From: a virus
IMG/VR virus record: IMGVR_UViG_3300031840_000430
Span: 1 to 26,085 of that record
Direction: 5' to 3' (one strand)
DNA length: 26,085 nucleotides
A program made the translations under genes and the position numbers. The notes under the pieces were generated by a model. That model had not been told where the DNA came from. It saw only the letters and a list, made by a program, of their open reading frames with translations, and did no database searches. Positions 983 through 9,954 of this stretch are shown piece after piece. Every line of letters starts with the position of its first letter. The stretch's first letter is position 1.

Positions 983-1381
983 CTATTCCCCCTCAAATTG
1001 AATCAGCAGGTCAATATAGTGGCGAGCCTTTTGCAGATCCTCAACCCCGCCTTTTGACTTGTAGCGGGTCACGTACTTGACCACGTTTCCCGCCGCGAAT
1101 CCAAGATTATTCTTTTCCGCGTACTCCGTCGGCTGAATTGCAAGATCCTTGTAGTGAGATCCGCCAACCTGTTTGTCGGTTGCTTTGGTGGTTTCTGCCT
1201 CTCCTCCAGCAATCCACCAGACATCTCGGCCCGTTATTGATTCCCAGTGTCGAAGTCCTGAGCGGGTCATCACTTGCCCGTTTGCATTAGCGTCTGATTT
1301 TGTCGGCAGCATGTAGTTCATTAGTTCCCTTTCGGTTTTTGGTTCGTTAATTGGTTCAGCTTGAAAGCCCCAGTCAAGCAT
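983..1381 (-). CDS. DUF3310-family protein
   Basis: 132 residues. The C-terminal half has the features of the phage DUF3310 family: VGGSHYKDLAIQPTEY, then GFAAGNVVKYVTRYKSKGG and an EDLQKARHYIDLLIQ helix. As far as I recall the nucleotide kinase gp1.7 of phage T7 belongs to this family, but most members have no proven function. The N-terminal 70 residues are not part of the family core. Two in-frame starts each have a ribosome-binding sequence: ATG 1381 after GAAAGGGTAAAGG, and ATG 1321 (residue 21) after GAAAGGGAACTA. Two products are possible. The gene overlaps the small gene before it by 8 bases and is followed by a terminator-like hairpin. Confidence 0.85.
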   Translation of the reverse strand: MLDWGFQAEPINEPKTERELMNYMLPTKSDANANGQVMTRSGLRHWESITGRDVWWIAGGEAETTKATDKQVGGSHYKDLAIQPTEYAEKNNLGFAAGNVVKYVTRYKSKGGVEDLQKARHYIDLLIQFEGE

Positions 1382-1547
1382 CCTTTACCCTTTCATTGTC
1401 AGAGATGTATTTCACTATCTTTTTGACCGCTTTATAAGCCTGCTCGATTTCAACAAGCCAGTGATCTGATCCGTTTTGTTCAGAAAGAACCTTTGCCATC
1501 GTGACCACTCGCGTTAGCAGCCTAATCTCTGGTTGTAGATGCATCAT
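1374..1547 (-). CDS. Small unknown protein, 57 residues
   Basis: Starts at ATG 1547 (an ATGATG doublet, so 1544 is also possible) after the leader GAAAGGGAAACT, the phage's standard early ribosome-binding sequence. The product begins MMHLQPEIRLLTRVV and is helical and charged, ending NERVKDA. Its stop overlaps the next start (1381) by 8 bases, so translational coupling is likely. No family is recognised. The strong leader and the exact overlap are the evidence that it is real. Confidence 0.7.
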   Translation of the reverse strand: MMHLQPEIRLLTRVVTMAKVLSEQNGSDHWLVEIEQAYKAVKKIVKYISDNERVKDA

Positions 1548-1584
1548 AGTTTCCCTTTCAAGTTTGTTGGTTTAAATATCCGTT

Positions 1585-1612
1585 GGGGGGGGGCAAATTA
1601 GCCCCTCCCCCC
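1585..1612. other. G/C-run inverted repeat
   Basis: Nine G and a C (1585-1594) face GCCCCTCCCCCC (1601-1612) across the loop AAATTA, a very stable hairpin in either strand. It spans the stop codon of the gene 1598-1861. No T-run follows on the minus strand, so it is not a classical terminator; transcript protection or polymerase pausing are alternatives. The G run is also a place where sequencing errors are likely. Confidence 0.6.
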
Positions 1613-1861
1613 GCCTGTCTTAACCGTTACAAATTTTGTCGTAGGCGTTACAGTCTGGTTGTGATAGTCCACTTGGTGAAGCGTGCCGATTCCCATGCGG
1701 CCCGTTTTGTAGCCGCATGATATCAGCGATCTAGTCCACTCGGAGCCAGCTTGCCGGACGGGCCCCATGAAGTCCCGCCAGATTGATACGCCCAATCCTT
1801 CAAAAAGCGTTTTGCTCGCTGCCTCTTGGGCTGTCGAGCTGATCTGTTTACCCGCTGTCAA
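1598..1861 (-). CDS. Unknown protein, start uncertain
   Basis: 87 residues from a TTG at 1861, which has no clear Shine-Dalgarno. The body (for example TLFEGLGVSIWRDF, SLISCGYKTGRMGIG) looks coding but matches no family I know. The frame is closed upstream by a TAA near 1880. The other frame just upstream, from a GTG at 1899, reads VFKQPDKRL and would join smoothly to LDPDDLTAGKQ in this frame, which hints at a one-base frameshift near 1876 or a sequencing error. The gene before it ends at 1934, so a start near 1899 would suit the operon's usual tight spacing. The start is unresolved. Confidence 0.45.
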   Translation of the reverse strand: MTAGKQISSTAQEAASKTLFEGLGVSIWRDFMGPVRQAGSEWTRSLISCGYKTGRMGIGTLHQVDYHNQTVTPTTKFVTVKTGGGRG

Positions 1862-1933
1862 ATCATCAGGGTCAAGCGTTTATCCGGCTGCTTGAACACC
1901 GTTGCAACTTTTAGGCGTTGCTATTTCGTTCCA

Positions 1934-2212
1934 CTATCTTATCAAAATCTCGCTTGCCGCCATCTTTTCAGCCTGTTTGCGACTCATCCTACCAATCCCT
2001 TGCAGGAACCGGACCCGTCCAGTAAATCGATACCAATCCTGATTGGCAAGGTACTGGCTCTTGAAATAAAACGTGTCTCTGGAATAGGGACCGCAATCGC
2101 ATTTGGTTCCAATGTACCAGTAGACTGTATTAAAAACTCCAAATTCTACATCCCTGCCACAAGTCTGGCAAGTCTGATTTGCCCCCTTCGCTATTGTCTG
2201 CCCGTCCAACAT
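1934..2212 (-). CDS. Small zinc-ribbon-like protein
   Basis: 92 residues from ATG 2212 after GAAAGGGAAGTG. The start shares one base with the stop of the gene before it (TGATG). Residues around 14-40 contain C-x2-C (CQTC) and later a CDC pair in TKCDCGPY, a pattern that could hold one zinc ion. The C-terminal part is basic (RMSRKQAEKMAAS). No specific family is recognised. A small nucleic-acid-binding or regulatory protein is a reasonable inference from the zinc ribbon, nothing more. Confidence 0.7.
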   Translation of the reverse strand: MLDGQTIAKGANQTCQTCGRDVEFGVFNTVYWYIGTKCDCGPYSRDTFYFKSQYLANQDWYRFTGRVRFLQGIGRMSRKQAEKMAASEILIR

Positions 2213-2664
2213 CACTTCCCTTTCATGAATTTTGTGAATTGATTGATTGGAATCTTGGCAATCAAATCCTGATCCCATTGATCCCGCATGTTTTCAGTGC
2301 TTCGCCCGTCGAAGTGTAGCGGCTGGATTCCAAGGGCGGTCAGGTCGCAATATCTAACCTCCTGATGGGTGTCTCGAACAGCAAACAGCACCGGCAAGTT
2401 CCAGCAGATCCGAATTTTGTTTGCCGCTTCGATTTTCGAGGCCGAACAAAACACGTCGGGAAAATCTCCCCACACGAACGACCTCTGCCGAATTTCAATC
2501 AGTCCGGTGATCCGCTTTGGATCATCCTTTCTAGCGATTGCGTAATCAATTACCCAGTGCGGGTTGAGCTTATACCGGACCAGTTTCCATTCGCTGCAGA
2601 GCCAGCGGCAGATCGATTCTTCGTTCTGCCGGTCCCGCTCAGACTCGTATTGTTTGCGAATCAC
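2212..2664 (-). CDS. Unknown protein, possible PD-(D/E)xK-like fold
   Basis: 150 residues from a GTG at 2664 that overlaps the stop of the previous gene (GTGA), after the leader GAAAGGCATCAA. Around residues 38-62 the sequence WVIDYAIAR...GLIEIRQRS recalls the D-(spacer)-E-x-K core of restriction-endonuclease-like folds, with Arg in place of the usual Lys. Later strands (PVLFAVRD, VRYCDL) would fit the same fold. If so, it may be an inactive or unusual nuclease relative. The match is from pattern only. It sits in a block of small accessory genes next to the CsrA-like gene. Confidence 0.65.
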   Translation of the reverse strand: MIRKQYESERDRQNEESICRWLCSEWKLVRYKLNPHWVIDYAIARKDDPKRITGLIEIRQRSFVWGDFPDVFCSASKIEAANKIRICWNLPVLFAVRDTHQEVRYCDLTALGIQPLHFDGRSTENMRDQWDQDLIAKIPINQFTKFMKGK

Positions 2665-2870
2665 TTGATGCCTTTCTGCAAGTCGCGGACATCATCCCGA
2701 AGCCCGCTGATCTGCTGCTCAATGTTACCGATCCTGACTTGCATGTCCATGATGTTCTTCACGATCAACTGCTTGCCCATTGGCAAGACTAGATTTTCAA
2801 ACATGTCTGAAAATGATTCTTTGACATCAGCAACCAGTTGCCGCAGGTCGTCATTTGTTTGGTGGTCCAT
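2661..2870 (-). CDS. Small coiled-coil protein
   Basis: 69 residues from ATG 2870, which follows GAAAGGATCGGGACG. A longer in-frame reading to 2960 exists, but the upstream portion is occupied by another small gene in a different frame and the ribosome-binding sequence favours 2870. The product is almost all helix, with heptad-like spacing in its second half (MQVRIGNIEQQISGLRDDV), so oligomerisation through a coiled coil is likely. It overlaps the gene before it by 20 bases and the GTG start of the next gene by 4. No family is recognised. Confidence 0.65.
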   Translation of the reverse strand: MDHQTNDDLRQLVADVKESFSDMFENLVLPMGKQLIVKNIMDMQVRIGNIEQQISGLRDDVRDLQKGIK

Positions 2871-2964
2871 CGTCCCGATCCTTTCTGTCCAATTCTGCCA
2901 TCTCAGCATCGATCTTTTCAATCGCGTAATCCTCGCGATAGTATACTTCGCCATCCTCATCCAT
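2851..2964 (-). CDS. Very small acidic protein, 37 residues
   Basis: ATG 2964 is preceded by GAAAGGGAAGAGAA, a full copy of the early leader. The product starts MDEDGEVYYREDY and continues IEKIDAEMAELDRKDRDDG. It is strongly acidic and probably helical. It overlaps the stop of the CsrA-like gene by 8 bases and the next start by 20. Small acidic phage proteins often bind and block host proteins or mimic nucleic acid, but nothing here shows a target. Directly after a CsrA-like gene, a partner of that protein is one possibility to test. Confidence 0.6.
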   Translation of the reverse strand: MDEDGEVYYREDYAIEKIDAEMAELDRKDRDDGPPNK

Positions 2965-3142
2965 TTCTCTTCCCTTTCTTGATATTGTCGCGCCGGATAT
3001 CCACGGCAATCGGAGCCGTGAATCCGATCTTGGTTGCTTTGCTGGTTGTCATCTGGACGACCAGCTCGACAACGGTCGGTTCGGTTGATGGCGGCACAAT
3101 CACAGTAACCGCCTCCTTTTTCTTGCGAGTCAAAACTAGCAT
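2957..3142 (-). CDS. csrA: CsrA-like RNA-binding translational regulator
   Basis: 61 residues. The N-terminus MLVLTRKKKEAV matches the first strand of CsrA (MLILTR...E), and IGFTAPIAVDIRRDNI (39-54) matches the IGVNAPKEV-x-VHREEI segment of the family; Arg51 aligns with the RNA-contacting Arg44 of E. coli CsrA. The middle is about seven residues longer than in bacterial CsrA. Family members are dimers that bind GGA in mRNA leaders and block or alter translation. ATG 3142 is chosen because CsrA proteins begin at ML[IV]L and it follows GAAAGGAATCAA; the frame could extend to 3166. The gene's own leader has an AAGGA core, so self-regulation is possible. Many early genes here have leaders containing ANGGA. 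Confidence 0.85.
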   Translation of the reverse strand: MLVLTRKKKEAVTVIVPPSTEPTVVELVVQMTTSKATKIGFTAPIAVDIRRDNIKKGKRNG

Positions 3143-3171
3143 TTGATTCCTTTCAATGTGCATCAACAGTG

Positions 3172-3321
3172 TTATTGATCTATCTTTTTAATTTTAAGAA
3201 TGTGATCTTCTTCGATATTAAGCAATTCTGCCGCTATTTCGAACAGGCTATATTCTTCGAGGTAGTAGCGGGAGATTGAGACAAACAGTACTTTTTGAGA
3301 TTTAAGTTTTACTTCAAACAT
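3172..3321 (-). CDS. Small unknown protein, 49 residues
   Basis: ATG 3321 follows CGAAAGGGAAACG, and a copy of the repeated GC hairpin lies just upstream (3342-3357). The product begins MFEVKLKSQKVLFVSISRYY and continues with a helix, LFEIAAELLNIEEDHILKI, that may be a small DNA-binding or dimer helix. The sequence SLFEIAAELLNI loosely recalls the first helix of a helix-turn-helix, but the domain is too short to be sure. It ends 29 bases before the CsrA-like start. No family is recognised. Confidence 0.65.
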   Translation of the reverse strand: MFEVKLKSQKVLFVSISRYYLEEYSLFEIAAELLNIEEDHILKIKKIDQ

Positions 3322-3341
3322 CGTTTCCCTTTCGTTTATAA

Positions 3342-3357
3342 GCGGAGCTAATCCCGC
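3342..3357 (-). repeat. Leader hairpin repeat, copy 1
   Basis: Minus strand GCGGGATTAGCTCCGC. GCGG pairs with CCGC; one loop base differs from copies 3 and 4. It is preceded by the shared GCCATAAC and followed by TTATAAACGAAAGGG and a start codon at 3321. This copy lacks the long T-run. Confidence 0.75.
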
Positions 3358-3373
3358 GTTATGGCTACAGGGA

Positions 3374-3601
3374 CTAGTCCCAGATGGTATATAAAACTTT
3401 ATTATCCCGCTTCAGTTGCCGCATTTGTATGACGGGAGTTCCGCCATGCCCTGATGGATGGAGGCCATCAACAGTATGCTCCCCACGGCGACGGAGCTTA
3501 GCCCACGCCTGCTTGGGGGACTTCCCGAAGGCAACTGCTCGCACGTTGCAATACGCGCCACAGGGATGGGCTTCAACATTAGTACGTGTGACTTTAAACA
3601 T
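3374..3601 (-). CDS. Small basic unknown protein
   Basis: 75 residues from ATG 3601, preceded by CGAAAGGGAGATAATAG and by copy 2 of the leader hairpin. The product is basic, with VEAHPCGAYCNVRAVAFGKSPKQAW near its N-terminus. The K-x-P-x-x-A-W-x-x-L pattern (SPKQAWAKLRR) looks like a helix that packs against a small beta sheet. No family is recognised. It forms a single-gene unit between two copies of the same leader hairpin, an arrangement that suggests the unit can be gained or exchanged. Confidence 0.65.
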   Translation of the reverse strand: MFKVTRTNVEAHPCGAYCNVRAVAFGKSPKQAWAKLRRRGEHTVDGLHPSGHGGTPVIQMRQLKRDNKVLYTIWD

Positions 3602-3625
3602 CTATTATCTCCCTTTCGATTAAAA

Positions 3626-3641
3626 GCGGAGCCGATCCCGC
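3626..3641 (-). repeat. Leader hairpin repeat, copy 2
   Basis: Minus strand GCGGGATCGGCTCCGC followed by TTTT. The stem GCGG/CCGC is kept and one loop base differs. The upstream AGCC (in AGCCATAACG) can pair with GGCT of the hairpin, an alternative fold. Confidence 0.75.
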
Positions 3642-3661
3642 GTTATGGCTGTTAAATCTAT

Positions 3662-4084
3662 TTAGCTGACATAGCAGGCCGTCGGCTTGCCGTCTATGTC
3701 GACCATAATCACACCGGACCCTTCCAGCGAATCTTCAACCTCTGTGATGGTCGCTTGCCGTATGTATTCGCCAGTTGAATGCTCACTTAAGTCCATCGGC
3801 GTAAAGTGGCAATCTGAATTGACTTGTCGACTGATTTGATGCTGTTGCCAAGTGATGGCGAAAGCAAGTTCAGCGTTTTCGTTTACCCAATCCCGCTCTG
3901 CTTTCCACGATTCGTGCATCAGGTGGTCAGCAAGTTCTGAATCATCGCCAGCCGCTTGATACCGTTCGTGCAGGCGGTCAAGATGGTCGACGTCAAGCCG
4001 CATCATCTCGCGTAGTTCTGAATCGCCCCAATTTGACTCGTTTACGATCTGGGCCAGTGACTTTAATTCGGTTCGTTTGTTCAT
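3662..4084 (-). CDS. Unknown acidic protein, first gene of the leftmost cluster
   Basis: 140 residues from ATG 4084 after AGAAAGGGAAAACG. The N-terminal two thirds are helical and acidic (LREMMRLDVDHLDRLHERY, HLMHESWKAERDW). The last 40 residues look like beta strands (EYIRQATITEVEDSLE, GVIMVDIDGKPTACYV). No family is recognised. It is the first gene after the promoter/operator copy at 4118-4177, so it is probably the earliest product of this cluster and may be a regulator or host-takeover protein. That is inference from position only. Confidence 0.7.
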   Translation of the reverse strand: MNKRTELKSLAQIVNESNWGDSELREMMRLDVDHLDRLHERYQAAGDDSELADHLMHESWKAERDWVNENAELAFAITWQQHQISRQVNSDCHFTPMDLSEHSTGEYIRQATITEVEDSLEGSGVIMVDIDGKPTACYVS

Positions 4085-4117
4085 CGTTTTCCCTTTCTTA
4101 ATGTTGCTGATAAGGAC

Positions 4118-4177
4118 TACATTACACTAGATCGGCTCTGTGTAATACCCCAATCTAGCCTTTTTCAGAAAATAATC
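4118..4177 (-). promoter_or_regulatory. Promoter/operator element, copy A
   Basis: A 24-base dyad, TTACAC-N12-GTGTAA (4122-4145), with the core ATCGGCT, then 23 bases and AAAATAATC (4169-4177). The same parts recur at 9959-10014 with exactly the same spacings. On the minus strand ATTACA and AATGTA, 17 bases apart, could act as weak -35 and -10 boxes, giving a start some 30 bases before the ATG at 4084. The dyad would then be an operator overlapping the promoter. Confidence 0.65.
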
Positions 4178-4191
4178 AAAATCGCTGAAAA

Positions 4192-4217
4192 CTAGGTAAT
4201 TCATTGCAATTACCTAG
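4192..4217. repeat. Perfect 10-base inverted repeat
   Basis: CTAGGTAATT and AATTACCTAG flank the loop CATTGC. On the minus strand it is followed by TTTT, so it could be a modest terminator for the helicase operon ending at 4326. It could equally be an operator or part of a replication origin. Confidence 0.6.
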
Positions 4218-4369
4218 CCCCCGCCACATCCCTGCATTTGCCCTGTAGCGAACCGGACCCGATCCAGTGCATGATTTGCCGACAGTCCAGCAATACGCCA
4301 GCAGGCGTAAGCTGTGGCGATCTGATCAGAATTCCAGAGCGATCGGCTTGGGCTGCCAAGAGAATCCAC
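4214..4369 (-). other. Possible small frame after the helicase gene
   Basis: A 51-codon frame from GTG 4369 to a TAG inside the inverted repeat at 4214. The stretch DQIATAYACWRIAGLSANHA looks protein-like, but there is no Shine-Dalgarno, it overlaps the helicase end by 44 bases, and no family is recognised. It may be a remnant of a lost gene. I record it only because the 108 bases between the helicase and the inverted repeat hold nothing else visible. Confidence 0.2.
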
Positions 4370-5174
4370 CAAACGATTCTTGGTAATACATCAAGATCGG
4401 CTTGTCCGCATCAGTCGGCTTGCCGCCTGATCTGACCGACTTGATTTTGCAAACGTGCATCTCCATCCGGTTTGCCAGTTCCTCGTTCTGAACCTGCCTG
4501 TGCATCATGACAAGTGAATCACTTCGGTTGCACCACATCACGCCCATTTCTAAATGACTGGAAAGCGGGACGGCAATCCCTTGTTTTATCTCGCGCCTTG
4601 CCGCGTCGGTCGATGCGTGCATCGTGACAATCAGCTTTGCCTCTTGCTTGTTGATCCAGTCCCGCATCCGGCCAGCGTTATCGTAATGCTCTTTGTATCC
4701 GCCGTGTTTAAGTGACGAATAAGGGTCGATCAGAAAACCGTTGAACGCCCAATGCTTTTTGATCCAAGACGCTTCTTCCAAAAGTTCTTCGAGACTTGGA
4801 AAGCCTTCGTTTTTCATGAATACAAAATGCTCATCAATCCATCGGATTGCCTCAGCTCGTTGAACTGGTGTCTGTTCGTGGACCGGCAATTCATGGAACC
4901 ATTCGATCAGTAGAACCTTTGTTTCAATGTTGTTATTCTCGCTTGAGTAAATCAGCCATTTCGGTTTCAATGGAAGCAACATTGACCAGCTAAACATCAG
5001 CCACAAAGTGCCGACCGTTTTTCCAACATTGGCAAGTCCGCCAACGATTAACAAGTCGGGTCCCTTGTAGAGCAAGTGGTCATCTAGTTGCCTGATCCCT
5101 GTTTTGATTTGGCGAGATTTTCGATTATTAAAATACGGATGCAGATCCTCAATTGTAATTTTGTCAACGGTCAT
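4326..5174 (-). CDS. RecA/DnaB-fold ATPase, probable replicative helicase
   Basis: 282 residues, one RecA-type ATPase domain. Walker A is GGLANVGKT (45-53), a glutamate in SSEN (79) stands where DnaB-type enzymes have their catalytic Glu, Walker B ends in FLIDPYSSL (Asp150), and LIVTMHAST (182-189) carries the sensor His. The order and spacing resemble the C-terminal motor domain of DnaB/gp4 helicases and RepA-like hexamers. It lacks a primase or N-terminal DnaB domain. In the phage it would unwind DNA at the fork or move along ssDNA. It follows the ERF, exonuclease and ssDNA-associated genes but is separated from them by a strong terminator-like hairpin. ATG 5174 follows GAAAGGAATGAATCAAA. 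Confidence 0.8.
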   Translation of the reverse strand: MTVDKITIEDLHPYFNNRKSRQIKTGIRQLDDHLLYKGPDLLIVGGLANVGKTVGTLWLMFSWSMLLPLKPKWLIYSSENNNIETKVLLIEWFHELPVHEQTPVQRAEAIRWIDEHFVFMKNEGFPSLEELLEEASWIKKHWAFNGFLIDPYSSLKHGGYKEHYDNAGRMRDWINKQEAKLIVTMHASTDAARREIKQGIAVPLSSHLEMGVMWCNRSDSLVMMHRQVQNEELANRMEMHVCKIKSVRSGGKPTDADKPILMYYQESFGGFSWQPKPIALEF

Positions 5175-5191
5175 TTTGATTCATTCCTTTC

Positions 5192-5238
5192 AAAAAAAAA
5201 CGGCTTGGCACTGACGCAAATGTCAGCACCAAACCCGT
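5192..5238 (-). terminator. Strong intrinsic terminator-like hairpin before the helicase
   Basis: On the minus strand TTTGGTGCTGAC pairs with GTCAGTGCCAAG (three G-T pairs), extended by ACGG/CCGT with one bulge, then nine T (5200-5192). Only 17 bases separate the T-run from the helicase ATG, so helicase mRNA must come from read-through. Confidence 0.85.
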
Positions 5239-5255
5239 GATTGCGTTTGTAGCTG

Positions 5256-5528
5256 CTAGAACGGTGAACCGTCTCGCTGGCCTGAAATCGCGACTGGACT
5301 TCCCTTAGTCTTATCGTCGCTTGACGATTCATATTGATTGAGGTCTGCGTATGGCCTGCCGCTTCGCCCTAGTTTTATTTCAATTTTTACTCGACCTTTC
5401 TTTTGATAAGTCTCAAGGAATTGAATGAATTGCTTCACGTCAATACCTACGTTGCACACTACGAAATCCGGTTTCTTTTCATGGATTTCAGGATAGAAAC
5501 CCTTAGCAAAAATCTTATCATCAGCCAT
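5256..5528 (-). CDS. Possible ssDNA-associated phage protein
   Basis: 90 residues from ATG 5528 after AAGGAG, a consensus Shine-Dalgarno. It overlaps the exonuclease stop by 8 bases. The N-terminal 65 residues have beta-strand character (DKIFAKGFYPEIHEKKPDFV, VKIEIKLGRSGRPYADL). The low-complexity, flexible tail ends in DGSPF, resembling the acidic DD(I/L)PF tip of single-stranded DNA-binding proteins. Similar small proteins next to phage recombinases are known, but I cannot confirm the family. Lying between the exonuclease and a helicase, a role in coating or handing over ssDNA is plausible. Confidence 0.65.
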   Translation of the reverse strand: MADDKIFAKGFYPEIHEKKPDFVVCNVGIDVKQFIQFLETYQKKGRVKIEIKLGRSGRPYADLNQYESSSDDKTKGSPVAISGQRDGSPF

Positions 5529-6141
5529 TCGTGTTCTCCTTCAGGAAATTAGTTAATCGGTCCACCTCATCGGCAAACCTGTTTAGGTTTCGCAGAACCT
5601 TGTTTTGCTTTTCTTCGTCCCTTTCTATACGAACTTGAAACGGTCTAAGCTCCTCGGCTGGATGGTATGCGTAGAAGTCACACCAATCCCGCCCAGTCAC
5701 CAACAACTGACCGTAGATTTGCTGGATGTATCGCGTTGGCAATTTGCCATCTTTCTGGAACTTCAACAACGTCTTTGGCTGCGGACATTTGATTTCCAGA
5801 ATCCCATCTTCGCCAACCATACGGTCAGGCGATACGCCGAACCTGCGACGGTCATCGAAATAACAGAAACCAACCTCACGCACGTCCTCGCTAGAATCCA
5901 TGGAATAACATAACGCAGCCTCATCCTCATAATCAATCCCATGTTGCATTGCCGGATTGATATGGGTCTCGACCCGCTTTCCTGTAATCCTTTCAGTTGC
6001 CAGTTCAATTCCGTATTCAGCTCGTTGAGCTGATATCTCGAATTTGCTCGTCATGACTTTGGAGAATCCGCTTGCCGTGGCAATGCCAAGACGACAAGCA
6101 AACCACACCTCAGACCGTTGCTCGCAAACAATCTCAATCAT
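5521..6141 (-). CDS. YqaJ/lambda-type recombination exonuclease
   Basis: 206 residues. The N-terminus EQRSEVWFACRLGIATAS (7-24) is the typical start of the YqaJ viral recombinase domain. Catalytic residues of the PD-(D/E)xK core are visible: Glu72 (YEDEA), Asp106 (VSPDRMV), Glu116 and Lys118 (LEIKCP) and Gln141 (IQQIYGQLLVTG). These enzymes degrade one strand from a double-strand end to leave ssDNA for annealing. ATG 6141 overlaps the ERF stop (ATGA), so the exonuclease and annealing protein are made together as a two-part recombination system like lambda Red. Length is normal for the family. Confidence 0.92.
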   Translation of the reverse strand: MIEIVCEQRSEVWFACRLGIATASGFSKVMTSKFEISAQRAEYGIELATERITGKRVETHINPAMQHGIDYEDEAALCYSMDSSEDVREVGFCYFDDRRRFGVSPDRMVGEDGILEIKCPQPKTLLKFQKDGKLPTRYIQQIYGQLLVTGRDWCDFYAYHPAEELRPFQVRIERDEEKQNKVLRNLNRFADEVDRLTNFLKENTNG

Positions 6142-6719
6142 TTGTCAGCTTTCTTTTTCAAGGCGTTGATCGCCTGTTGAAGTTTGGCAGGATCTGATTT
6201 TAAGTCGTCGCATTTTTTGATTGAAAATGCTTTGAAAAACTTGTCACTATCGAAATCCTTCTTGTCGAAAAGCACACTAAATTCGTCAAACAGTTTCGCC
6301 GGTTCAGCAAGCGGTTGGCGGTGGCTTTCGCCATCGTCATCTTCTTGAGCAATACCAAGGATTGAAGCCAGTGAATATCTGCGAGCGTAGGTAATGGCTG
6401 ATCCTATCTGTTGCGGGTCCAACTTGGTTGGCGTTAAAAGCAATTTGCTTTTGAGCCATTCCCCGCTTTCGTGGATTACCATCGTTTCAACTCCCGCCAT
6501 GATCGTGCCTTCAACCATTTCAGTCATCGGCGACTGAGTGACAGCAAGCCCGTTATTAGCAAGCGGTTTGCTTGCCACGTCCAGACATTCAGACAGGTCC
6601 GCATACTTGGATTTGAAATAAGGATTAGCTGAGGATTTCTTTGCCCCTCCCATCTGGGATTGTGCCGCAACCAATGCGGCTGCTAGATTGGCAATTGATT
6701 CAGATTGAGTAGTAGTCAT
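6138..6719 (-). CDS. erf: ERF-family single-strand annealing protein
   Basis: 193 residues. Family marks: NPYFKSKYADLSECLD (32-47), the strand LLLTPTKLDPQQIGSAITYA and the highly characteristic YARRYSLASILGIAQEDDDG. ERF proteins form rings on ssDNA and anneal complementary strands during phage recombination and genome circularisation. The C-terminal tail is lysine-rich. ATG 6719 is chosen because GAAAGGAACCTC precedes it and the conserved domain begins soon after; the frame is open to 6791 but that stretch lies over the divergent gene. Its ATG is only 12 bases from the ATG of the plus-strand gene, so its promoter must lie inside that gene or further upstream. Confidence 0.92.
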   Translation of the reverse strand: MTTTQSESIANLAAALVAAQSQMGGAKKSSANPYFKSKYADLSECLDVASKPLANNGLAVTQSPMTEMVEGTIMAGVETMVIHESGEWLKSKLLLTPTKLDPQQIGSAITYARRYSLASILGIAQEDDDGESHRQPLAEPAKLFDEFSVLFDKKDFDSDKFFKAFSIKKCDDLKSDPAKLQQAINALKKKADK

Positions 6720-6731
6720 GAGGTTCCTTTC

Positions 6732-7028
6732 ATGGAATTCAGAAATTGCAAAAACATCTTTGAGTATTTGAGCCAAGGAATAATCTACCAAAGGCTGTAT
6801 GATTTTAAACCGCCGAGAGGGATTGATTCCTTTTCGATAACCAGAATTGGATCGGTTGAGCGAATCGAAGCCTACCGCAAGCGGTTAGAATTAGGTTATG
6901 AATTGTTTGCCTCGACCGATGTTGATGAAGCCTTGGCAATTGAAAAATCAATTGCTGACCAGAAGCAGTTCGATGCTGATATGGACCAATCATTTTTCCC
7001 CAATCGTAAAGGCAGACGCATCAGATGA
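6732..7028 (+). CDS. Unknown protein, first gene of the plus-strand island
   Basis: 98 residues from ATG 6732, with GAGG eight bases upstream. A TTG at 6705 in frame is less likely. The product is charged and helical: IFEYLSQGIIYQRLYDF, then VERIEAYRKRLELGYELFAS and DEALAIEKSIADQKQFD. No family is recognised. Its stop overlaps the next start (ATGA at 7025), so it is translationally coupled to the RusA-like gene. It is one of only three genes on this strand in the window. Its promoter must lie in the antisense of the ERF gene; a poor TTGTGC/TAGATT pair with 18 bases between is the best I see. Confidence 0.7.
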   Translation: MEFRNCKNIFEYLSQGIIYQRLYDFKPPRGIDSFSITRIGSVERIEAYRKRLELGYELFASTDVDEALAIEKSIADQKQFDADMDQSFFPNRKGRRIR

Positions 7029-7332
7029 AGCGTAAAAAAAAAGTAGTAGAAATCGTCGTCCCCGTTCCGATGCCAACGTGGAATCGAATCTTGTCAATGA
7101 CCCGATTCAGCAGAATGAAGTTGCGACATTTAATTCACCAACTCATCTGGAAATCATCCATCACCGCAAACGGCCAACCGATCCCGATGGTTGTTCCGCC
7201 AAAGCAGCAATCGATGGAATCGTTGCTGCTGGAATACTTCCAGATGATTCGGCCAAGTGGATTGAATCGATCAAAATTACAGTCATACAAAGCGTCGTTG
7301 AAAAAACAATTTTTCGGTTCACGGAAGTCTAG
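7025..7332 (+). CDS. RusA-like Holliday junction resolvase, split over two frames
   Basis: The gene starts at ATG 7025 (overlapping the previous stop), with a RusA-type beginning: EIVVPVPMPTWNRILSM and a basic helix. That frame loses similarity after about 7140. In the frame one base back, the catalytic half appears: RPTDPDGCSAKAAIDGIVAA, then GILPDDSAKWI and a final strand, ending at TAG 7330-7332, two bases before the next ATG. Asp codons at 7180, 7186, 7243 and 7246 match the metal-binding cluster of RusA. Both ends fit the operon perfectly while 308 bases is not a multiple of three. A mutation, sequencing error or -1 recoding between about 7120 and 7165 would explain it. If left unshifted the first frame runs to 7357 and yields a basic non-RusA tail. 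About 102 residues, slightly shorter than RusA (120). Confidence 0.65.
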
Positions 7333-7334
7333 CG

Positions 7335-7682
7335 ATGGCAAAAAACGAAAAGCATAGTTGTCGAGTTTGCTCAGTCAACTACACGATCCAGCCGAAGGAA
7401 AAGCTCGGCCTTGCTGACGGATGCTTCGGAACTTGTGACAACAATCGGGAGCTGATTGAGTTTGAGAAATCTCAAACGAAGGATCAACTATTCCGCACCA
7501 TTATCCACGAATTGCTCCACGCTGTCTGCCACCAAACGAGCCTTGCCCTTGCTGACGAGGAATTAACGGTCAGTCAAATCACCGCTGGCATCTTCTCCAT
7601 CGTCGAGGATCCCAGAAATAAACCCGTCATCGACTGGCTCATATCCCTCAGGCAAACCGCTGACCCAGATTCGAATAAGTAA
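7335..7682 (+). CDS. Zincin-like small phage protein with HELLH motif
   Basis: 115 residues. HELLH (58-62) preceded by a hydrophobic helix is a zinc-metallopeptidase motif, and Glu75 or Glu76 (ADEELT) is well placed as the third ligand. The C-terminal helix NKPVIDWL (95-102) and the G-x-C turn near 29-34 fit a group of small phage proteins related to ImmA/IrrE or SprT-like zincins. ImmA-type enzymes cleave or activate partner proteins such as repressors. No partner is visible here. An extra CRVC pair lies at 9-12. The last 120 bases overlap the minus-strand gene 7563-7781 in antisense. The ATG 7335 follows the RusA-like stop by two bases. Confidence 0.75.
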   Translation: MAKNEKHSCRVCSVNYTIQPKEKLGLADGCFGTCDNNRELIEFEKSQTKDQLFRTIIHELLHAVCHQTSLALADEELTVSQITAGIFSIVEDPRNKPVIDWLISLRQTADPDSNK

Positions 7683-7781
7683 TTTGTGAAGTTGTTTGAC
7701 GTCTGGACTCCAGTCATCCCTGACCATTTCAGCGGCCTTGACGATAGCCGCAATCAGCATCCGTTCCTGTTCTTCGTTCAT
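7563..7781 (-). CDS. Small unknown protein overlapping the zincin gene in antisense
   Basis: 72 residues from ATG 7781 after TGAAAGGATTGAC, the early leader. The N-terminal half is helical (EEQERMLIAAIVKAAEMV) and the C-terminal tail acidic (GILDDGEDASGD). The 3' 120 bases lie opposite the end of the HELLH gene, so the two genes converge and overlap. It follows the small membrane gene by ten bases. No family is recognised. The ribosome-binding leader and position in the minus-strand series are the reasons to accept it. Confidence 0.65.
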   Translation of the reverse strand: MNEEQERMLIAAIVKAAEMVRDDWSPDVKQLHKLLIRIWVSGLPEGYEPVDDGFISGILDDGEDASGDLTDR

Positions 7782-7791
7782 GTCAATCCTT

Positions 7792-7902
7792 TCAAAAAGT
7801 GTAGGCAAGGTAAATTTCGGCCAGTCCCAATAGCATAGTTGCGAGTGAGATAAGGCCGAAGCAGAAAAACGTCAGGTAGCTTGGAAGTTCTTTGATCTTC
7901 AT
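7792..7902 (-). CDS. 36-residue single-span membrane peptide
   Basis: ATG 7902 overlaps the HNH stop (ATGA). The product starts MKIKELPSYL and then runs through a hydrophobic segment, TFFCFGLISLATMLLGLAEI, long enough for one membrane span, ending LAYTF. The stop at 7792 lies just before the leader of the next gene. There is no Shine-Dalgarno beyond AAAG, but coupling through the overlap would supply ribosomes. Small phage membrane peptides can inhibit host functions, exclude other phages or take part in lysis; nothing here decides. It is not adjacent to recognisable lysis genes. Confidence 0.6.
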   Translation of the reverse strand: MKIKELPSYLTFFCFGLISLATMLLGLAEIYLAYTF

Positions 7903-8234
7903 TTCTTTGTCCGTTCGTTAAAGTGAATTTCCGCATGGCAGTTTTTACAGACCACCTTGCACTTTTTAATCTCGTCCAGCATCCTCTGGCGAGAGTATCC
8001 GCCGTGGACCATTTCGGATATGCCCATCGACTTTTCATCTTGGTGATGAAAGTCTAGACAGTAGTACCGATCCTCTCCGCAGCTTTCGCAGCTCACCACC
8101 TTTTTAAATTCGATAATCCATTCCCTTGATCTTTGGATCCTAGCCTTTCGCAGGCTGGTTTCCTTTTTCTGATTCGACTTTTTTGAGCGGTACTTCTGCA
8201 CTGCAATCCGATTCGCTTCTTGGTCTTTTGACAT
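7899..8234 (-). CDS. HNH-type endonuclease with zinc-binding cysteines
   Basis: 111 residues. After a very basic N-terminus (residues 1-40) come Cys49-x2-Cys52 (CESC), then LDFHH (60-64) with the catalytic first His of the HNH motif, and Cys96-x2-Cys99-His-x3-His (CKNCHAEIH). This is the beta-beta-alpha-metal nuclease fold stabilised by a zinc ion held by two CxxC pairs. It is a free-standing small protein and not fused to an intron or intein, and could be a homing nuclease or act in packaging or recombination. It is far from the terminase genes, where packaging-associated HNH proteins usually lie. ATG 8234 follows CAGAAAGAAATC and a terminator-like hairpin. Confidence 0.88.
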   Translation of the reverse strand: MSKDQEANRIAVQKYRSKKSNQKKETSLRKARIQRSREWIIEFKKVVSCESCGEDRYYCLDFHHQDEKSMGISEMVHGGYSRQRMLDEIKKCKVVCKNCHAEIHFNERTKK

Positions 8235-8249
8235 GATTTCTTTCTGTTG

Positions 8250-8286
8250 AAAAACCGGCTAACCTTTTCGATTGCTGCTACGCCGG
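8250..8286 (-). terminator. Weak terminator-like hairpin before the HNH gene
   Basis: CCGGC (8286-8282) pairs with GCCGG (8259-8255) around a loop of about 22 bases, followed by five T (8254-8250). The T-run is 15 bases before the HNH ATG. The long loop makes this the least certain of the set. Confidence 0.45.
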
Positions 8287-8308
8287 AAGGTCACAGCAGT
8301 TAATTGAG

Positions 8309-9190
8309 TTACGCACTAATTGCAAGAGCTTCTGCCTGTTTCACGAGGCTGTCCGAACTGGCTGCGATCACCCGATCGTAGTCGGTCGATCCTTTAGCCC
8401 GTGACTTGTCATGTTGTACGAATCCCTGCACGCCATTGAATGCTTCCCACGCTGAAACCATCCAGTCTGATCCAATTTCAGGACGTCCAGTTGCCCATCG
8501 TTCCTTTTGGATTCGCGTGAATATTTTGGCAATCTTCTTTTCTGCCCTTCCTTTTGTGATGGCAGAGTCTTGCTCATTCACTGGAATCAACTTACTGATA
8601 AATTCAGTCAATTGCACCTTACGGGATTCCATCCCGCGTACCGCTTCGACGATTGAATCCCAACGGTTCCGCAAAGTTGCAAAGTCAGCTATCAGGCCGT
8701 CCATATTTGCCCTCAGGTTCGAGTCGTGTCGGATCATAATCGATGTGGACTCAACCGATCTTAGTTCCATCATATTTCGGCAAGCGTCACGATACATACC
8801 CATCTGGACCCGATAACCACCGTTGCCGTACCGACCAGCAATTGAGAATCGCGGAAAGATATTGTCAGAACTTCCGAAGATTGATTGCCTGAATTTCTTG
8901 GTAGGCTGTAATGATATGTGGTGACCATCGCGGAACGTTCCGCTTATCTGAATCTCATCGTTAAATGCAGTCGCTCCCGCTTCGGCCAATGTGATAACAT
9001 CGCTCGTCTGATGAGGTACATAAGATCCGCGAACGGATCTCGATGAACAGTACTCACCGTTGTCATCTCGCCAGAGTCCGTATTCTGGCGAACGCAATCC
9101 ATCCGGTCCATTTAGTGGCAGCTTCAAAACTTGGAATGGAAACATTTCGTGAAGTGTATCGCTGATCTTTTCTGTTGTCGTGATAGTCAT
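8309..9190 (-). CDS. DUF932-family phage/plasmid-like protein
   Basis: 293 residues. The layout SPEYGLWRDDNGEY (about 34-47), VRGSYVPHQTSDVITLAEA (53-71), then FRDGHHISLQP and a later helical half (RWDSIVEAVRGMESRKVQL, SDWMVSAWEAFNGVQGFVQH) matches the DUF932 family found in phages and plasmids. Its biochemical role is unknown; members often lie near recombination and replication genes, as here. ATG 9190 is chosen because it follows GAAAAGGAACCAGACT and the longer frame to 9259 would have to cross the leader hairpin repeat. It forms a single-gene unit flanked by leader hairpins and terminators. Confidence 0.82.
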   Translation of the reverse strand: MTITTTEKISDTLHEMFPFQVLKLPLNGPDGLRSPEYGLWRDDNGEYCSSRSVRGSYVPHQTSDVITLAEAGATAFNDEIQISGTFRDGHHISLQPTKKFRQSIFGSSDNIFPRFSIAGRYGNGGYRVQMGMYRDACRNMMELRSVESTSIMIRHDSNLRANMDGLIADFATLRNRWDSIVEAVRGMESRKVQLTEFISKLIPVNEQDSAITKGRAEKKIAKIFTRIQKERWATGRPEIGSDWMVSAWEAFNGVQGFVQHDKSRAKGSTDYDRVIAASSDSLVKQAEALAISA

Positions 9191-9212
9191 AGTCTGGTTC
9201 CTTTTCGTCGTT

Positions 9213-9235
9213 AAAAAAAGCGGAGCCAATCCCGC
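9213..9235 (-). repeat. Leader hairpin repeat, copy 3, with T-run
   Basis: Minus strand GCGGGATTGGCTCCGC (9235-9220) followed by seven T (9219-9213). GCGG/CCGC pair. This copy lacks the upstream GCCATAACG shared by the other three. The DUF932 ATG is 22 bases further on. Confidence 0.8.
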
Positions 9236-9255
9236 TGGAAGGCTGAATCTGTCAG

Positions 9256-9648
9256 TCAAACCAATTCGAGCGAATGCTCTTTTGCCATTTTTCTCAGCAA
9301 AGCATTCTGCCCATCAGTCCCAATGTTGAATCGATGTCGACCGCCTTCGCCAGTGCCAAATTCGGTCATCTCGAAACTAGTTAAAAACCAATCCTTGGAG
9401 CCACGGACTATCGTGGCCACATTTCCATCGCGTGAATACTTATATTGGCCCGCCACCGCTTCGCTCGATTCGATGCGGAGTGTTACGCCTGATCGATGAT
9501 TCTTCGGCAACTCCATTGCCTCCAATTTTGATTCGGCCCATTCGCCAAGACACCGCACATCATCACGATCAAAGGTGTGGGCTGTTTTGCGACCGTTTGT
9601 GTCATCGACTAACTTGAGGATCTTAGGATCTGTGATTTTGATTTTCAT
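9256..9648 (-). CDS. Unknown protein with a leader hairpin
   Basis: 130 residues from ATG 9648 after TGAAAGGGAAAACG and leader hairpin copy 4. The longer frame to 9717 would cross that hairpin and is rejected. The product opens MKIKITDPKILKLVDD and has strands such as GQYKYSRDGNVATIVRG and a last helix, NALLRKMAKEH. No family is recognised. The mixed alpha/beta pattern with a helix DDVRCLGEWAESKLEAMEL in the middle suggests a compact single-domain protein. It is the second gene after the promoter/operator copy B, so is probably made early. Confidence 0.7.
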   Translation of the reverse strand: MKIKITDPKILKLVDDTNGRKTAHTFDRDDVRCLGEWAESKLEAMELPKNHRSGVTLRIESSEAVAGQYKYSRDGNVATIVRGSKDWFLTSFEMTEFGTGEGGRHRFNIGTDGQNALLRKMAKEHSLELV

Positions 9649-9661
9649 CGTTTTCCCTTTC

Positions 9662-9685
9662 AAAAAAAAGCGGAGCCAATCCCGC
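9662..9685 (-). repeat. Leader hairpin repeat, copy 4, with T-run
   Basis: Minus strand GCGGGATTGGCTCCGC (9685-9670) followed by eight T (9669-9662), identical to copy 3 in the hairpin. Preceded by GGCCATAAC, which can pair with GGCT as an alternative. The next ATG (9648) is 13 bases after the T-run. Confidence 0.82.
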
Positions 9686-9709
9686 GTTATGGCCGTTGGT
9701 TGTTTTGCT

Positions 9710-9919
9710 TCACCCAACTACACAAACACCCTTATGAACTAGGCCGATTTTGTGATGATCGCGATTGTGCCAGTCGGTAACAACTGGAACGAATCGACCT
9801 TCCTCATTCACGGCAATGACCCAGTCCATTTCCTCTATTTCATCTCCGGCCACTTTGCGAAGTTTTTTTTCTGCGTTTTCAGGTGTTGCGTAACTGCTCG
9901 CGTCGTTAAACAATCTCAT
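9710..9919 (-). CDS. Small unknown protein, first gene after promoter copy B
   Basis: 69 residues from ATG 9919 after CGAAAGGGAAAACG. Content: an N-terminal helix with KKLRKVAGDEIEEM, a strand-rich middle (WVIAVNEEGRFVPVVTDWH) and a glycine-rich end. The strand EGRFVPVVT recalls small SH3-like or KOW-like barrels, but the resemblance is weak. It is the first gene behind the control element at 9955-10014 and so should be among the earliest transcribed. No family is recognised. Confidence 0.68.
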   Translation of the reverse strand: MRLFNDASSYATPENAEKKLRKVAGDEIEEMDWVIAVNEEGRFVPVVTDWHNRDHHKIGLVHKGVCVVG

Positions 9920-9954
9920 CGTTTTCCCTTTCGATTAATAAATTTGATATACCT

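Follow-up and report, generated by a model that had tools for sequence, protein, structure and literature searches.

Proteins of the CsrA/Rsm family recognize the RNA motif ANGGAN; in RsmA, R44 is essential to RNA binding and Glu46 takes part in an R6-E46 salt bridge between the dimer subunits (PMC3791407). RsmN is a member of the same family that is not domain-swapped; an insertion of 16 residues after its strand 2 forms a helix (PMC3791407). Members of the family are also encoded by phages: 30 of 2517 phage genomes were reported to carry csrA alleles (PMC7366521), and Burkholderia phage JC1 carries a csrA gene whose product is perhaps present in the virion (PMC9144972). A tblastn search with E. 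coli CsrA matched 85 of the 50,697 records of a phage collection, the 85 including at least one non-phage genome (a 691-kb Salmonella record). The phage-borne CsrAs that resemble the present case, in being encoded by a csrA-family gene in a tailed-phage genome, are RsmM of Pseudomonas phages, JC1 gp47 and that of Vibrio phage VvAW1, where an annotated exonuclease gene overlaps the CsrA match. No established function was found in the literature for any phage-borne CsrA.

The DNA analysed here (the window) is a linear IMG/VR virus record of 26,085 bases. Genes for the small and large terminase, portal, major capsid and tape-measure proteins are located on one side, and genes for an Erf-type annealing protein, a RecE/lambda-type exonuclease, a helicase-like protein, an HNH endonuclease and a PDDEXK endonuclease on the other. 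The csrA-family gene lies between the helicase-like and the PDDEXK gene, and it counts as phage-borne because the same virus record contains the terminase, portal, capsid and tape-measure genes just listed. All the identified phage genes of the window are on the minus strand, as is csrA, which lies downstream of the genes for the helicase, the exonuclease and the Erf-type annealing protein; this position suggests that it belongs to the early region. The original prediction regarded CsrA as no usual part of phage genomes; it is indeed uncommon there, but was already known from the genomes cited above. Thus, carriage of csrA by a phage is not new, and the extended-loop CsrA described below is a new form. 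Most of the known phage-borne CsrAs found are 60–80% identical to E. coli CsrA, whereas a tblastn search with the window protein against the 50,697 phage records gave no meaningful relative (best E about 6). The identity of the window protein to the cellular CsrAs compared is about 30–43%.

The open reading frame read from the sequence runs from 3142 to 2957 and encodes a protein of 61 amino acid residues (MLVLTRKKKEAVTVIVPPSTEPTVVELVVQMTTSKATKIGFTAPIAVDIRRDNIKKGKRNG). Its existence and coordinates agree with the original prediction, which did not give the strand; on the plus strand the same frame contains a stop codon. The same protein was found in two other contigs, L002 (IMGVR_UViG_3300031839_001080, 100% identical) and L003 (IMGVR_UViG_3300040985_000917, 90%). 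The ATG at 3142 is the likely start, since the GAAAGGAA site 12 nt upstream of it is kept in L003, where the region of an alternative upstream TTG start is replaced by other sequence. The coordinates of the gene and of its neighbours are listed in the table.

Table. Features of the csrA-family locus and of the repeated leader elements (window positions unless a contig is named).
Feature	Position	Strand	Remarks
csrA-family CDS	2957..3142	(-)	ATG at 3142, TGA at 2957-2959, 61 aa
csrA ribosome-binding site GAAAGGAAT	3146..3154	(-)	AAGGA (ANGGA core) inside; 12 nt ahead of the start codon; same sequence in L003
37-aa acidic ORF MDEDGEVYYREDYAIEKIDAEMAELDRKDRDDGPPNK	2851..2964	(-)	start overlaps csrA stop by 8 nt (ATGGATGA)
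Small ORF, start MDHQTNDDLRQ	2661..2870	(-)	after 37-aa ORF, same direction
PDDEXK_14 phage endonuclease (PF24579)	2212..2664	(-)	next gene downstream
49-aa ORF	3172..3321	(-)	immediately upstream of csrA, between leader and csrA, in window and L002
Leader element AGCC-N5-GCGGGATTAGCTCCGC	3342..3366	(-)	before 49-aa ORF; one base off consensus in window, consensus in L002
Leader element	3626..3650	(-)	before 75-aa ORF (3374-3601)
Leader element	9220..9244	(-)	before ORF ending at 8309
Leader element	9670..9694	(-)	before ORF ending at 9256
Further leader locations	L021 522-1617; L108 5660-5730

Translational coupling of csrA to the 37-aa acidic ORF is likely, because the start of the latter overlaps the csrA stop and its ribosome-binding site, GAAAGGGAA, falls within the csrA 3′ end. 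L003 holds a counterpart sequence of this ORF, and one may speculate that its product is a partner or an antagonist of CsrA. The following ORF (2661..2870) gave no convincing family match in profile searches. At the edge of the contig (24829-26082, minus strand) a protein of 417 amino acid residues is encoded, whose C-terminal part has an N6/N4 DNA methylase domain (residues 208–401) and whose N-terminal half has no assigned domain.

Profile matches, conserved residues and selection all supported the reading of the product as a CsrA-family protein. Pfam PF02599 (CsrA) matched residues 1–56 over profile positions 1–49 of 53 (E 2.5e-7) with 31 bits, above the curated cut-off of 27 bits, in the HMM search by which the original prediction was to be checked, and PHROG 9500 (CsrA-like regulator) matched with E 7e-4. 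An hhalign comparison of a profile of the window protein and three viral relatives (A2) with a profile of twelve canonical CsrAs, query excluded (A5), gave a probability of 98.8 and E 9e-17; the comparison of A2 with A1, in which the query was included, was set aside as circular. A PDB profile search, with a profile that includes canonical CsrAs, returned CsrA/Rsm entries only. The NCBI csrA equivalog cut-offs were missed (TIGR00202, 24.3 versus 70.1 bits; NF002469, 23.4 versus 73 bits). Since PF02599 was passed and the canonical profile matched while the equivalog cut-offs failed, the window protein is a member of the CsrA family, yet, as judged from these profiles, no orthologous CsrA.

In length, and in its N-terminal MLxLTR (here MLVLTR), its IGxxAP motif (IGFTAP, residues 39–44) and its Arg44 equivalent (Arg51), the last three as originally predicted, the protein resembles the CsrA/RsmA family. 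Alignment with E. coli CsrA showed that L4, R6, E10, G40, A43, P44 and R51 are kept, and thus that the RNA-contact residues L4, R6 and R44 of the family are present in the corresponding columns. The differences are an insertion, a substitution and a short, basic C-terminal tail (KKGKRNG). The dimer-bridge residue Glu46, conserved in at least 90% of the aligned sequences, is Asn53 in the window protein and in L003; this was counted as a deviation, Glu46 being no defining residue of the Pfam family. Between E10 and the conserved Gly the window protein is 7 residues longer than E. coli CsrA, and the extra 6–7 residues are located at the turn that joins strand 2 to strand 3 (PPSTEP). The longer central loop that had been predicted is therefore real, and it marks a small viral subfamily: a PST motif occurs at the same insertion site in L025 (IMGVR_UViG_3300031227_000017, 46% identical) and L026 (IMGVR_UViG_3300033233_000794, 39%), which differ from the window in retaining Glu46 and in their gene neighbours. 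The first of these is a 111-kb viral contig (G017) with both a canonical CsrA gene (57396-57545) and the extended-loop one (91981-92148). Looser insertions of similar length were present in a Planctomycetota chromosome (L045) and a Sulfuriflexus MAG (L032). Two scans of genome contigs for relatives gave none in the first and only ordinary or loosely similar CsrAs in the second. A long strand 2-3 loop was also observed in a chromosomal CsrA of Planctomycetota (L116, 7870-9471); the adjacent 434-aa ORF may encode a helix-turn-helix protein. We found no published description of an extended-loop viral CsrA subfamily. As the original prediction had proposed, the loop may affect RNA choice.

Between the window and L003 the csrA genes differ at 25 bases, of which 18 are third positions of codons; dN is 0.049, dS 0.596 and dN/dS about 0.08, and the ribosome-binding site is identical. 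The gene is under purifying selection. The profile match together with the dN/dS value ruled out a chance ORF.

The ribosome-binding site of csrA is one of a set. The coding strand of the window has 19 copies of GAAAGGRA, 16 of them at 7–23 nt before an ATG (15 of the 16 in the first 10 kb), and the other strand has two, the number expected from composition being about 1.6 per strand. Most of the sites carry the ANGGA core. Within 1333-9932 (minus strand) GAAAGGRA is common to the genes of the early region, and the late genes are largely without it. The shared site is in itself no demonstration of CsrA binding, because a strong Shine-Dalgarno sequence yields ANGGA by itself. For the same reason, and because three of the start positions entered were off by a few bases, an enrichment of ANGGA upstream of genes (23 versus 11.7 in a mononucleotide shuffle) was not used.

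The hypothesis that the window CsrA gives the phage control of translation or of the host CsrA network can be stated in several forms. The best explanation, which we favour tentatively and short of holding it probable, is a dimeric CsrA-family regulator of translation, with the phage's own early mRNAs as its likeliest targets. A protein with a lengthened strand 2-3 hairpin, most likely a dimer, would repress or re-tune translation by binding to GGA within ribosome-binding sites, and the early mRNAs that share GAAAGGRA would be its most plausible targets. Given the GAAAGGRA-type site before csrA itself, the regulator could exert negative autoregulation and serve as a brake on the early genes. 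Family membership, the conserved RNA-contact residues, purifying selection and the shared site were observed directly, and from there we infer dimerisation, RNA binding, targets and timing. Two observations speak against this explanation: Glu46, the dimer salt-bridge residue of RsmA, is replaced by Asn53, and the csrA leader in the window has a single GGA within 60 nt upstream, that of the ribosome-binding site.

The RegA protein of phage T4 is a translational repressor of early genes. The mode proposed here, with early mRNAs repressed at their ribosome-binding sites, would be similar; the analogy concerns the working mode, and no homology or sequence relation is claimed.

The phage's own mRNAs as target are weakened by the likely host, which probably has CsrAs of its own, so that the target may be the host's. 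The window TerL gave its best match (347 bits, 38%) to a Planctomycetota genome, with five matches of at least 270 bits among 343 genomes; the best scores were 219 bits in the phylum to which the Sulfuriflexus MAG belongs (299 genomes) and 265 bits in the phage collection among the matches listed. Because TerL scores higher there than in the comparison sets, Planctomycetota are moderately favoured as the host. One Planctomycetota MAG (G016) contained 12 CsrA matches, and there were genomes in which the subfamily profile matched as many as 8 times. The window protein could then compete with, titrate or hetero-dimerise with host CsrAs and re-program metabolism or defence, a possible but somewhat unlikely course of action. 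The several csrA paralogs in the likely host phylum and the TerL similarity to Planctomycetota copies are consistent with it, as is the control of CRISPR-Cas by Rsm/Csr indicated in an account of Serratia (PMC8450108). Against it stands the low identity to cellular CsrAs given above; moreover, the host call is based on TerL comparisons with samples of 343 and of 299 genomes. A more specific form of the phage-directed explanation, which we consider doubtful, is that the extended-loop CsrA would be a phage-dedicated early repressor reading GAAAGGRA, including its own site, with the PPSTEP hairpin separating its targets from those of host CsrAs.

The position of the insertion is also that found in RsmN (PMC3791407), and the protein might accordingly be a rearranged member of the RsmN type, in which the insertion after strand 2 blocks domain swapping, so that the dimer is connected in another way. 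The monomer model of the window protein (mean pLDDT 78.7, pTM 0.55) had three strands assigned, and its eight best Foldseek matches in the PDB were all CsrA/Rsm chains, at weak E values of 0.97–2.9. The top two were RsmN and RsmF of Pseudomonas aeruginosa (4kji, 4k59), with TM 0.50 and 0.49 at a non-significant E of about 1, so that the ranking is weak; the best match in a viral structure library was a phage CsrA (E 0.022). An extended C-terminal helix is absent, in agreement with the reduced one of RsmN/RsmF. In contrast, their insertion of 16 residues forms a helix, while that of the window protein has 6–7 residues with the PST motif, and neither the alignment nor the model showed a helical insertion of about 16 residues. 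A short hairpin extension need not alter the topology, and a rearranged dimer of this type is improbable.

A further candidate for the RNA partner of CsrA was a repeated leader element, AGCC-N5-GCGGGATNGGCTCCGC, present before genes in four copies in the window, one with a mismatch and one with a GGCC start. Three copies occur in L008/L003 (L008 6140-6163, 11800-11823 and 12083-12106), one of them directly before csrA, the 49-aa ORF being missing in L003 and the leader joined to csrA there. The element also precedes small genes in L013 (four copies), L076/L085/L090/L094, L077, L108 (two in tandem) and L114; L085 and L090 are related phages with the leader before different genes in each. Its general form is AGCC-N5-xxGG-GATN-GGCT-CCyy, with compensatory pairs in the second stem (GCGG/CCGC, GAGG/CCTC, TGGG/CCCA and GGGG/CCCC). 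Over 14 distinct copies, found by fixed patterns, 90.5% of cells were paired in a structure resembling a pseudoknot (GCC with GGC, xxGG with CCyy), the three core pairs of helix 1 being invariant. Three pairs were changed on both sides, and none of 500 shuffles reached the covariation score, copies within one phage being related and the shuffles ignoring relatedness. Thermodynamic folding of single leaders was unremarkable. Rfam searches of the window, L013 and L008 gave chance-level matches only, none of them at the leaders; the pattern was not found in 392 Planctomycetota genomes, and a 42-nt leader gave only two chance-level matches among the phage records, both to Sulfolobus viruses.

That csrA and these leaders form one regulatory system, with the leaders as dedicated CsrA RNA targets, would fit their number in the window and L008/L003, the copy abutting csrA and the GGGA in each, and is nevertheless hardly probable. 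In the leaders GGA is preceded by CG, lacks the A of ANGGA and overlaps a stem, CsrA binding does not account for the conserved GCC and GGCTCC, and five other CsrA-bearing viral contigs are without the element. The contigs L013, L076/L085/L090/L094, L077, L108 and L114, which are fragments, gave no CsrA match, and pairwise tblastx of six representative leader contigs showed no similarity save two short, weak matches between the window and L114. Because unrelated phages with no detectable csrA carry the covarying element, the leaders are probably not dedicated CsrA targets, and the leader looks like an RNA or DNA element separate from csrA.

That the gene is cargo, passive or in decay and of no use in infection, would be in line with the failed equivalog (24 bits versus 70) and the lost Glu46, but is very improbable in view of the purifying selection (third codon positions account for 18 of the 25 changes), the kept ribosome-binding site and the retention of the gene in all three related contigs.

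The locus is a compact case, with a csrA-family gene in an early-type region, a shared ribosome-binding site that contains the CsrA core motif and a likely host phylum rich in csrA. Whether such a regulator would act on the phage's own mRNAs or on the host network is directly testable here, because the shared site with the CsrA core and a host phylum with multiple csrA genes occur together. The extended-loop subfamily is, in addition, a natural variant in which the effect of the strand 2-3 hairpin on dimer topology and RNA choice may be studied.
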